A stretch of DNA of 64,000 nucleotides from assembly GCF_947179015.1 (NCBI RefSeq), contig NZ_CAMXCM010000002.1, positions 248,001 through 312,000 on the forward strand, in the 5' to 3' direction. The position numbers were made by a program, and so were the translations under genes. Below are positions 35,195 through 40,595 of this stretch, piece by piece. Position 1 is the stretch's first letter. The number at the start of each line of letters is the position of its first letter. The notes beneath the pieces are model-generated. The model saw nothing but the letters and a program-made list of their open reading frames with translations, searched no databases and had not been told where the DNA came from. Source of the DNA: Commensalibacter communis. GTDB taxonomy: Bacteria > Pseudomonadota > Alphaproteobacteria > Acetobacterales > Acetobacteraceae.

Positions 35195-35209
35195 TATTAT
35201 AAAGAAGAT

Positions 35210-35303
35210 TAGGAGATGATATCCTCCTTGTAAACTGCCGCATTTTGCGGATGATGATATCTACGTCAAGCCGGTTTTGTACGGGGCGCGTAGATCTGTA
35301 CCT
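35210..35303 (+). ncRNA. Fluoride riboswitch (crcB motif) with expression platform
   Basis: The aptamer (about 35210-35266) has the parts of the crcB/fluoride motif in order: GGAGATG...CCTCC, then AAACTGCCGC paired with GCGG after an ATTTT loop, and the 3' TGATGATATCTACG tail. A competing 7-bp stem, ATCTACG / CGTAGAT (to about 35296), could be the expression platform. It lies directly before crcB (fluC), the fluoride exporter, which is the classic target. One or two positions deviate from the textbook consensus (for example AAACTGCC instead of AACCGCC). Confidence 0.8.
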
Positions 35304-35336: not shown

Positions 35337-35720
35337 ATGTTTAATTCAATTATCATGATTAGTGTCGGTGGGGCACTAGGGTGCTTGTTGCGCTGGTGGT
35401 TAGGGTTATCCCTTAACGCTTTGTTTCCGTGTATGCCATTGGGAACTTTTGCAGCAAATTGTATCGCAGGATATTTAATTGGCGTTGCAATGGCTGTCTT
35501 TTTGTTGATTCCATCATTGGCACCGTGGCGATTATTCATTATTACAGGCTTTCTGGGCGGTCTTTCAACATTTTCGAGCTTTTCTGCAGAAGTCGTAATG
35601 TCCATGCAAGAGGGACGCTTTTTTTGGGCAGGAACTGAAATCGTGACTCATGTTGTCTGTTCAGTTGCTTTGACAATATTGGGGATGATGACAGTTCATT
35701 TTTTCTTTAACAATCTATAA
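35337..35720 (+). CDS. crcB: Fluoride ion channel CrcB/FluC
   Basis: A small four-helix inner-membrane protein that forms dual-topology dimers and lets fluoride leave the cell. The 127 residues show [11 protein letters not shown] at the N-terminus, the [13 protein letters not shown] helix and the pore signature [13 protein letters not shown]. The upstream fluoride riboswitch supports the assignment and tells how it is controlled. ATG 35337 follows AAGGATAGGAT. Confidence 0.94.
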
Positions 35721-35956: not shown

Positions 35957-35999
35957 TATCATTTTTGCTATTATTTTTAATCAATATTAGGATATAATC

Positions 36000-36209
36000 A
36001 TGTTAAAAGAATTAACAAGTGCAGAAATCTCTGAAGTATCTGGAGGTTGTTTTATTTTCTGTCGTCCACGTCCTTCTAAATGCAGTCCATACCCAAAACC
36101 TTCCTATCCTTCGCAAAAACCTCAGTACCCACAACAGCCTTCATATCCACAATACCCTTCATATCCACAGCAGCCTTCCTACCCTTATGGACGTCGTTTC
36201 TCGAGATAA
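36000..36209 (+). CDS. Double-glycine-leader Pro/Tyr-rich small peptide, candidate bacteriocin precursor
   Basis: A 69-residue peptide I do not recognise as a named family. Residues 1-16 match the double-glycine leader rule cut by peptidase-containing ABC exporters: Leu(-12), Thr(-11), Glu(-8), Ile(-7), Val(-4), Gly(-2), Gly(-1). The predicted 53-residue core has three Cys near its start (core positions 1, 5, 12), then a PSYPQ-type repeat, with 14 Pro and 8 Tyr. It has eight Lys/Arg and no Asp/Glu, and ends GRRFSR. ATG 36000 has AGGA eight bases upstream. No exporter or immunity gene lies beside it. Antimicrobial action is inference; a cell-surface role is possible. Confidence 0.7.
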   Translation: MLKELTSAEISEVSGGCFIFCRPRPSKCSPYPKPSYPSQKPQYPQQPSYPQYPSYPQQPSYPYGRRFSR

Positions 36210-36412
36210 GCCTGTTGTAAAATGGGGGATTGCTTATGTAATTCCCCCTAGTCAGTGGTAATTACAAAAAAGCATTACTTATCTGTGAATATTTTCCTAT
36301 ATTAACCTTATTATTTAGTTCTATGTTCAACTAATAAGTAGTAACAAATCATTCTTTATAGACATGTCCAAATATGACAATATGATCTTTTTTATGAGAA
36401 GGATCATTCGAG

Positions 36413-39032: not shown

Positions 39033-39284
39033 ATGTCTTTTAATAAATTAAAGCAAGCGGTAAAGAAATTACAACGCGCGCTTGAGGAACATGGTGGTTC
39101 TCTTGATGCCCAAATAAGATTGGCTTTTGAAATTGAAATACAGGAATTGTTACTAGAGATTGATGAACAAAATGAAAGGAGGAAGCAAGAATTACAAGCA
39201 ATGTATTTGAAACTATTAGCGGGACTATTATCCGCTTTACCAGTTCTCAAACAGTTGTTGGATATGTTTTATCATCATTTTTAA
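39033..39284 (+). CDS. Small helical protein of the retron-like cassette, unknown function
   Basis: An 83-residue protein with no family I recognise. Residues 5-58 look like a charged amphipathic coiled coil (LKQAVKKLQRALEEHGG; EIEIQELLLEIDEQNERRKQ). Residues 57-80 are much more hydrophobic (YLKLLAGLLSALPVL) and could insert in or bind a membrane. ATG 39033 follows AAGGAAG at a good distance. It lies between the candidate msr-msd RNA and the XRE gene on the same strand, so it may be an accessory or effector protein of the retron; this is inference. Confidence 0.65.
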   Translation: MSFNKLKQAVKKLQRALEEHGGSLDAQIRLAFEIEIQELLLEIDEQNERRKQELQAMYLKLLAGLLSALPVLKQLLDMFYHHF

Positions 39285-39311
39285 GGTAGTTTCATGTTTC
39301 AATACTCAAGA

Positions 39312-39336
39312 GTGAGCTTGTTTAAAAGTTGCTCAC
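39312..39336. repeat. Inverted repeat before the XRE gene
   Basis: GTGAGC / GCTCAC arms with a 13-base spacer, followed by T-rich sequence. It lies between the 83-residue gene and the HTH gene. It could be an operator for the HTH protein or a weak terminator that separates the two. Confidence 0.4.
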
Positions 39337-39370
39337 CCTATTCTAATTTTTAATTTGATTGGATTTTATT

Positions 39371-39649
39371 ATGAATGTAGCTCATGCGATAAAAATATGT
39401 AGAGCTGCTAAAAAACTTTCTATTGAAGCACTTTCTAACGAATCAGGTCTTTCAAAGTCATATATCTCAAAGCTTGAAAATGGCAAGCGTAAGCCTTCTA
39501 TGGAAGCGATTGAAAAAATATCAGAAACATTAGGGATACCTGTAGTAGTCTTATTGATGTTAGCTGCTGAAAAAGGTGAGATTTCTACGTTAAGTCCCGA
39601 TCTTGTATCTGAATTACAAAAATCAGTATTGGATGTTTTAGGAAGTTAA
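39371..39649 (+). CDS. XRE-family helix-turn-helix protein
   Basis: A 92-residue protein with an N-terminal Cro/C1-type HTH: LSIEALSNESGLSKSYISKLENGKRKPS is the classic helix-turn-helix run, followed by AIEKISETLGIP. A short C-terminal helix follows. ATG 39371 is chosen; the frame is open to a TTG at 39359. Its stop is only four bases before the reverse transcriptase ATG, so the two are translated together. HTH proteins are known accessory genes of some retron types; it could also simply repress this cassette. Confidence 0.85.
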   Translation: MNVAHAIKICRAAKKLSIEALSNESGLSKSYISKLENGKRKPSMEAIEKISETLGIPVVVLLMLAAEKGEISTLSPDLVSELQKSVLDVLGS

Positions 39650-39653
39650 TTTG

Positions 39654-40595
39654 ATGCAATATCTGTCTTATACAAAAGAAAATAGAATTCAAAATATCTC
39701 TTCATTATGTTTGGCATTAAAGATTAAGCAAGACGATTTATTAGAAATTGCAAATAATGTGCAGAATTATTATAAGCCACCATATTTTATCGAAAAGAAA
39801 AATGGTGGGCAGCGCTGTATTATTGATACAGTTGATCCTTTGAAACCATTATTAAAGTCAATTAATAAAGTGTTTTTTAAGAATGTTTACTTTCCTGACT
39901 ATTTAACAGGCTCTATTTCAGGAAGGGATTATATTTCAAATGTTAAGATTCATCGTAATTCGAAAAATATTATCACAGAGGATATAACTTCGTTTTTTGA
40001 TAATATTACAGAAAGTCATGTATATGATATTTGGAGACGTTTCTTTAGATTTTCTGATTCAGTTGCACAAATATTAACCCAATTAACGACTAAAGATGGA
40101 AAGATACATCAAGGTGTTCCGACAAGTTCTTATCTTGCAAATCTCTCATTATGGCGACATGAGCAACATTTTGTTAACGATCTGAAAAAGAAGGGATTTG
40201 TTTATAGTCGATATGTTGATGATATGACGATATCATCCTCTAATGTGATTAGTAGAGAAGATAAAACATGGGTTATTTCACATTTGATTGGTATGTTGTC
40301 TGCTAATACGTTACGTATAAAACGGTCTAAACATGCGGTTTTAACAAGTAATAAGCCAATGAATATAATGGGGTTAAATATCAACGGTTCTAAACCAACG
40401 ACCCCTAAAAAAGATCGTGATATTATTAGGGCAACGTTGCATCGTTTTGATAAGCATCCAGCTTCTTTTTCAGTAGAAGATTTACGTAGTTTACAGGGAA
40501 AGATCATAAATATTCGGCGTATGCATGTATCAAAAGGTGAGAAGTTTCTTAAGCAATTCAAAGAAACGTTACATAAAAATCATATTACTATATAA
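39654..40595 (+). CDS. Retron-type reverse transcriptase
   Basis: A 313-residue enzyme of retron RT size. In order (counting from a TTG one codon upstream) it has KNGGQR near residue 50, NVKIH at 97-101 matching the retron NAxxH region, EDITSFFDNI with catalytic Asp111, HQGVPTSSYLANL (RT4) and the catalytic YVDD (188-191). The retron VTG motif, tied to msr recognition, reads IMGLNIN. These features favour a retron RT over group II intron, DGR or Abi enzymes; no maturase or endonuclease domain is present. It would copy the upstream RNA into msDNA. It follows the HTH gene by 4 bp. Confidence 0.88.
   Translation: MQYLSYTKENRIQNISSLCLALKIKQDDLLEIANNVQNYYKPPYFIEKKNGGQRCIIDTVDPLKPLLKSINKVFFKNVYFPDYLTGSISGRDYISNVKIHRNSKNIITEDITSFFDNITESHVYDIWRRFFRFSDSVAQILTQLTTKDGKIHQGVPTSSYLANLSLWRHEQHFVNDLKKKGFVYSRYVDDMTISSSNVISREDKTWVISHLIGMLSANTLRIKRSKHAVLTSNKPMNIMGLNINGSKPTTPKKDRDIIRATLHRFDKHPASFSVEDLRSLQGKIINIRRMHVSKGEKFLKQFKETLHKNHITI

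Follow-up and report, generated by a model that had tools for sequence, protein, structure and literature searches.

Class II microcins of the microcin V type, which are exported by CvaA/CvaB/TolC, are among the closest described relatives of the secreted peptide considered here, and their features (a double-glycine signal, a C39 exporter, a fusion protein, and TolC) were used as tests (PMC9746304). In the same source, the catalytic triad of CvaB is Cys, His, and Asp, and some microcins may be without an immunity protein. A second system comprises the biofilm proteins EbfG1 to EbfG4 of Synechococcus elongatus PCC 7942, which are exported by PteB. EbfG1 has a GG leader, its efficient secretion needs the C39 peptidase cysteine of PteB, and mass spectrometry of culture fluid gave TTYNPPSYPYPSYPK as its mature N terminus (PMC4997328), while EbfG1 to EbfG3 form amyloid (PMC9981879). 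The class IIb leader family TIGR03949 (lactobin A/cerein 7B) is a third point of comparison. Among insects, apidaecin and abaecin are proline-rich antimicrobial peptides that are also cationic.

The peptide reported here is encoded in a 64-kb stretch of Commensalibacter DNA, the whole of which is called the window. It resembles the class II microcins in its double-glycine leader (15 to 16 residues in these systems) and in the genome around it, which encodes a C39 ABC exporter with the triad, an HlyD-type partner, and TolC-type genes. It is unlike them in that the exporter is unlinked, no immunity gene was found, and the core is rich in proline and tyrosine with a charge of +8. With the EbfG proteins it shares the GG leader and predicted C39 export. 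The closest precedent for the window core is EbfG1, whose core opens with PSYPYPSYP, a stretch resembling the PxYP repeat. Unlike those proteins, the window peptide lacks the amyloid hotspot A[FI]NI[GS] of EbfG1 to EbfG3 (PMC9981879), comes from a single orphan gene in another phylum, and has a conjectural biofilm role. Its likeness to TIGR03949 is confined to the leader (residues 3 to 17), and the core does not match. The insect peptides are likewise proline-rich and cationic, but the window peptide is bacterial and has a GG leader, a tyrosine-rich repeat, and a cysteine segment. The mode of secretion is already known, and we file the peptide as a double-glycine secreted peptide, not a proven microcin.

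A precursor gene with a proline- and tyrosine-rich core

The features of the gene are collected in Table 1. Within the precursor, the leader MLKELTSAEISEVSGG is followed by the core CFIFCRPRPSKCSPYPKPSYPSQKPQYPQQPSYPQYPSYPQQPSYPYGRRFSR. A 15-column leave-one-out profile, made from 28 distinct leaders of the genus with the window leader excluded, gave the window leader 19.4 bits (i-E 9e-5), and the next-best match across all six frames of the window reached 3.3 bits. Dinucleotide shuffling of the window, repeated 60 times, never gave a best score above 14.6 bits, and none of the 60 shuffles reached 19.4. The sequence comparison thereby upholds the double-glycine leader proposed in the preliminary description and confirms the small peptide gene as more than chance; it looks real. 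The sole NCBIfam match of the precursor was TIGR03949 (12.7 bits, E 0.08, cut-off 21.5 bits), and the sole Pfam match was DUF2076 (9.9 bits against a cut-off of 38 bits). No Pfam or NCBIfam model, microcin and bacteriocin models included, exceeded its curated cut-off.

Table 1. Features of the precursor gene (window positions)
Feature	Position	Strand	Basis
AGGA ribosome-binding-like site, 7 nt before ATG	35989..35992	+	Sequence
Precursor gene, 69 aa plus stop, ATG start	36000..36209	+	ORF and leave-one-out leader profile, 19.4 bits
16-aa double-glycine leader MLKELTSAEISEVSGG, predicted C39 cleavage after GG	36000..36047	+	Leader comparison/profile
53-aa core, +8, no acidic residue, 14 Pro, 8 Tyr, 3 Cys	36048..36206	+	Composition count
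Cysteine segment CFIFCRPRPSKC, Cys at core positions 1, 5, and 12 (CxxxCx6C)	36048..36083	+	Sequence
Six PxYP units (PSYP/PQYP)	36099..36185	+	Sequence
10-bp stem-loop past the stop codon, without T run, possible 3' end structure	36224..36247	+	z -2.4

The core had been described as highly cationic and free of acids, about 53 residues long, with three cysteines and then PSYPQ-type repeats, and the counts agree. It is 26% proline and 15% tyrosine, with 7 Gln, 8 Ser, 8 Lys/Arg, and no Asp or Glu, a computed pI of 9.8, and a mass of 6363 Da (6363.1 Da average, reduced); an RPRP motif lies near its N terminus. The PxYP units lie at precursor residues 34, 41, 47, 50, 53, and 59, and at 36129-36178 TRF reported an 18-bp unit repeated 2.8 times. 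The second position of the unit alternates between Ser and Gln and the P-x-Y-P pattern is kept, while the Tyr and Pro codons of the copies vary solely at third positions. Such synonymous-only differences are evidence that the frame is coding. The "Cys-knot start" of the preliminary description did not survive: a cystine-knot peptide has six cysteines in three disulfides, and the three cysteines here are too few. Outside the frame the signals were weaker. Promoter-like sites near the gene numbered 5 against a shuffle mean of 4.0, which is not above shuffles, a terminator scan near the gene found none, and the stem-loop past the stop codon was equalled in folding by 4 of 200 shuffles.

Leaders and cores in the genus and beyond

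Leaders were collected from nine Commensalibacter genomes, one per species (G000 to G008, with G000 the window's genome), by a pattern search, then by short frames with a start codon, and then by a profile search. The pattern matched 63 times in the nine genomes, against 16 for a reversed control pattern, and 11 times against 5 in G000. The search profile was built from 19 leaders with the window leader among them, and its results are in that respect partly circular; it found 35 leader places at E≤0.001, corresponding to 33 distinct peptides (G000, 3; G001, 4; G002, 1; G003, 5; G004, 3; G005, 3; G006, 11; G007, 2; G008, 3). The next places stood at 0.033 and 0.049, then at 0.08 and weaker. The cores behind these leaders are diverse, as the suggested search for the leader with variable cores in related genomes had anticipated. 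Most of them, 22 of the 35, have 79 to 111 residues, a Gly share of roughly 14% or above, and a net charge of -3 to +2, and Gly-rich cores of such a kind resemble class II microcins. Among the remainder, some are His-rich and some are short and basic. When the 35 cores were tabulated together with the next two (37 cores), the window core had the highest proline share (26%; next, 10%), the highest net charge (+8; next, +6), and the most cysteines (3; next, 1), and its tyrosine share was second only to that of a 6-aa stub.

Several members of this leader set have features of their own. A short GG-leader peptide of the window's genome with the core FGAYISWNNKDGFHAGAFLGKKPGKG (L132:6037-6162) lies among phage genes (terminase, SSB, and minor tail), and a similar core, FGVQWGHTHNSFWIKPFLGRRPGRG, occurs in G001 (L112:1501). 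The third leader peptide of the window's genome, of the GG(GA) type, is an orphan on contig C5 with a Gly-rich core of 80 aa (L131:7891-8178). G003, G005, and G008 encode a GG-leader peptide (L032:1276-1545 and likewise L033 and L034) whose core starts with the His/Asn-rich HGHNNNHQHHNNNQQHNNHHD and is perhaps metal-binding. G006 encodes five GG-leader peptides in tandem, Gly-rich in their cores, directly upstream of hlyD and a C39 exporter gene (L087:7720-9963).

At the cut-offs used, leaders of this type are rare outside the genus. A family scan of 249 genomes at E≤0.005 found the leader in 12, half of which (6) belong to Commensalibacter, and a class scan found it in 3 of 385 genomes at E≤0.001, all three Commensalibacter. 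The leaders read in the six other family genomes (seven loci) precede Gly-rich or hydrophobic cores, none of them rich in proline and tyrosine. The leader model TIGR01847 matched nothing in G000 at E≤10, and across the nine genomes no sequence cleared its cut-off; that it misses the leaders of the genus counts mildly against labeling them standard bacteriocin leaders.

Searches for homologs of the whole peptide gave weak matches. Of 397 family genomes, 26 matched at E≤0.01, the window's own included, and the best other match had an E value of 5.3e-4. Three of the weak family matches were read (L162, L164, and L166) and showed no small GG-leader gene, so that by sequence comparison, with three weak matches read, the 397 genomes offer no convincing case of a homologous core. 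Nor did 40 relatives, a GTDB scan, or the family genomes, again with three weak matches read, yield a homolog in which the core forms part of a larger structural protein, an outcome that the preliminary description had named as grounds for rejecting its view. Of the 40 relatives, 31 gave one or more matches at E≤1, and all matches except the window's own had E≥0.02. Two weak matches in the genus, L008 (internal stop) and L016 (31% identity), were re-aligned and taken as chance. None of 85 pattern stretches from a GTDB scan and none of 22 from viral contigs was confirmed, and plasmids and phages gave no match to the peptide. Among the papers listed by literature searches, none was found to describe the peptide or Commensalibacter double-glycine peptides, and phrases on proline- or tyrosine-rich bacteriocins found nothing.

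The exporter and the neighborhood of the gene

The peptide had been called an orphan without an exporter nearby, which would use one encoded elsewhere. The 2.58-Mb genome indeed contains a single C39 exporter match (E 7.8e-37), on contig C9, and the peptide gene is on contig C2; the other outcome named as grounds for rejection, a genome with no C39 exporter, is thereby refuted. The exporter gene (C9:18114-20285; L022:8114-10285, minus strand) has an open frame, as does that of its partner, and encodes a 723-aa protein whose C39, ABC membrane, and ATPase domains all exceed their cut-offs. Abutting it is the gene for an HlyD partner of 436 aa (C9:20282-21592; L022:10282-11592), with Pfam HlyD_3 (55.6 bits, cut-off 22.2) and HlyD_D23 both over cut-off. 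TolC-type channels are represented by 12 OEP domain matches, two in each of six genes of the window's genome. In an alignment of nine exporters from eight of the nine genus genomes (G008 left out; triad columns matched by eye), the catalytic Cys (AECG/SECG), His (NHFVVL), and Asp (NDP) were kept in all nine. The nearest PDB chains are peptidase-containing bacteriocin transporters, e.g., 8vp3 and 4ry2. Six of seven loci with exporter relatives are from Commensalibacter (73 to 90% identity), and the seventh is from a clostridial MAG (28%). A C39 ABC exporter was present in all nine genus genomes, ten exporters altogether, and a "bacteriocin exporter" gene has been described in all Commensalibacter genomes studied in PMC10149009.

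At eight of the ten exporters, one or more GG-peptide genes lie beside hlyD; the exporters of G000 and G001 have none. A single GG-peptide gene in G004 and in G007, and a set of five in G006, separates hlyD from a phage-type repressor gene, and in G002, G003 (both exporters), and G005 such genes come directly before hlyD, an arrangement with which G008 agrees by coordinates only. The 545-bp gap by the G000 exporter contained no leader, and comparing it with the equivalent stretches in G004 and G007 gave nothing significant (best E 0.09). The G000 exporter had dN/dS values of 0.036 to 0.038 against G007 and G004, compared with 0.045 between G007 and G004; dS was 1.5 to 1.9, near saturation, and the ratios are therefore rough. 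As judged from these sequence ratios, the G000 exporter is under purifying selection. An exporter under selection without a linked substrate presumably serves orphan substrates like the window peptide. Candidates in G000 are the window peptide and two others, one in phage surroundings on C7 with a core of 26 aa and one on C5 with a core of 80 aa. Adjoining the exporter are phage-type repressor and replication genes (L022:12138-15338), including one for a phrog_37226 protein that is also found in the C7 phage region, and parts of this gene order recur in G004, G006, and G007.

Around the peptide gene, the order in G000 is an htrA-like gene, crcB, the peptide, a META-domain gene, and a dienelactone-hydrolase gene. 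A fluoride riboswitch (35203-35270; Rfam RF01734, 41.5 bits) precedes the crcB fluoride-exporter gene (35337-35720), and farther along the window, at 39033-40595, PADLOC reported a Type VI retron-like set (SP_VI, weak, 7.5e-4; HTH_VI, 8e-24; RT_VI, 4e-69). No peptide-specific immunity gene was found next to the precursor gene. The META-domain gene was rejected as an immunity partner because META occurs in eight of the nine genus genomes, and the CrcB gene was rejected because, besides G004, five species without an intact peptide gene have crcB. In G007 no peptide separates crcB from META, and the distance between their matched ends is about 270 bp. In G002 a hydrolase gene precedes META, with crcB absent from the fetched stretch. 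In G004, crcB is followed by other genes, and a remnant of the peptide gene lies directly before META. The remnant spans 91 nt (71% identity, E 3e-6) and reaches the leader start, with AGGA ahead of it as in G000; it reads MLKELTKYEI and is soon stopped, and a 43-nt match (81%) to sequence beyond the gene in G000 follows. The leader start accordingly either goes back to a common ancestor or passed from one species to another, and G004 no longer has the core. Intact, the gene is present in one of the nine species.

These observations bear on whether the window gene is itself decaying or non-expressed, in which case its low-complexity repeat would be the degenerate core of what was once a GG-peptide. 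Such a history would fit the clear decay seen at this position in G004, the promoter-like sites at shuffle level, and the lack of a convincing homologous core in the family genomes (three weak matches read). The frame is nevertheless intact, the start and ribosome-binding-like site are kept, and the repeat codons for Pro and Tyr differ at synonymous sites only; we consider decay quite improbable.

Possible roles of the core

We propose that the ABC exporter encoded on contig C9 would receive the docking leader at its C39 peptidase domain and would work with its HlyD partner and a TolC-type channel; the leader would be cut after GG, and the 53-aa cationic core would be released outside the cell. 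The gene, leader, and exporter comparisons make this export part very probable. Once released, the core would most likely act on neighboring bacteria, making it a class II microcin-like peptide of an unusual kind. For the whole chain, in which we infer expression, docking, cleavage, export, and the antibacterial role, we put the probability somewhat below even, at roughly 0.45, and the final role of the core is the weak step. An antibacterial role is suggested because the core is cationic and free of acids, the distribution is accessory, and the leader set around the peptide is microcin-like; presence in one of nine species together with decay in G004 fits an accessory competition gene. Counted against it are a core that is not Gly-rich and is an outlier of the 37 tabulated, the unlinked exporter, and the unremarkable promoter-like sites, and the experimentally studied precedent for a PSYP-type core works in biofilm. 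The missing immunity gene counts against it as well, both at this locus and between the tandem peptides of G006, where the gaps of 79 to 275 nt hold no separate frame of at least 50 aa; for that reason the whole leader set may not be bacteriocins.

A biofilm role needs no immunity gene, and the peptide could be a surface protein of the EbfG type, exported in the same way, whose Pro/Tyr repeat sticks cells together or to the gut lining without killing. The leader, the PteB dependence, and the amyloid of the EbfG proteins lend this weight, and in a local alignment of TTYNPPSYPYPSYPK with the window core the score was 47, matched by 47 of 5000 core shuffles (mean, 32.3; maximum, 58), although this likeness covers the 15 EbfG1 residues compared, is low-complexity, and is modest beyond composition. 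The missing amyloid hotspot, the charge of +8 with three cysteines, and a gene that stands alone instead of in a transporter operon speak against such a role. We regard the surface role as a tentative possibility and lean slightly toward the antibacterial one.

A missing immunity gene would also fit an intracellular target, as expected of a secreted analogue of the insect proline-rich antimicrobial peptides that enters target cells and stops translation, with no membrane immunity needed. The 26% proline, the charge of +8, the RPRP near the N terminus, and the lack of acidic residues point the same way, but the high tyrosine content and regular PxYP spacing are atypical of the insect peptides, the N-terminal cysteine segment is unusual for them, and the producer would still need protection, which together make this explanation unlikely. 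In a related idea, a Gram-negative insect symbiont would send out the cationic Pro/Tyr-repeat peptide by microcin V-type export, with a leader common to diverse cores across the genus and with no membrane immunity protein, and the peptide would be the bacterium's equivalent of proline-rich antimicrobial peptides made by its insect host (or else an adhesive rich in Tyr and Pro); this also seems doubtful, if marginally less so.

Whichever role applies, the 35 leaders in nine species are proposed substrates for the Commensalibacter exporter, the window peptide among them. Its proline- and tyrosine-rich core shows the distance to which double-glycine cores can stray from the Gly-rich pattern. The set raises a testable question, namely, whether acetic acid bacteria of the insect gut use such exporters for competition, for colonisation, or for both.
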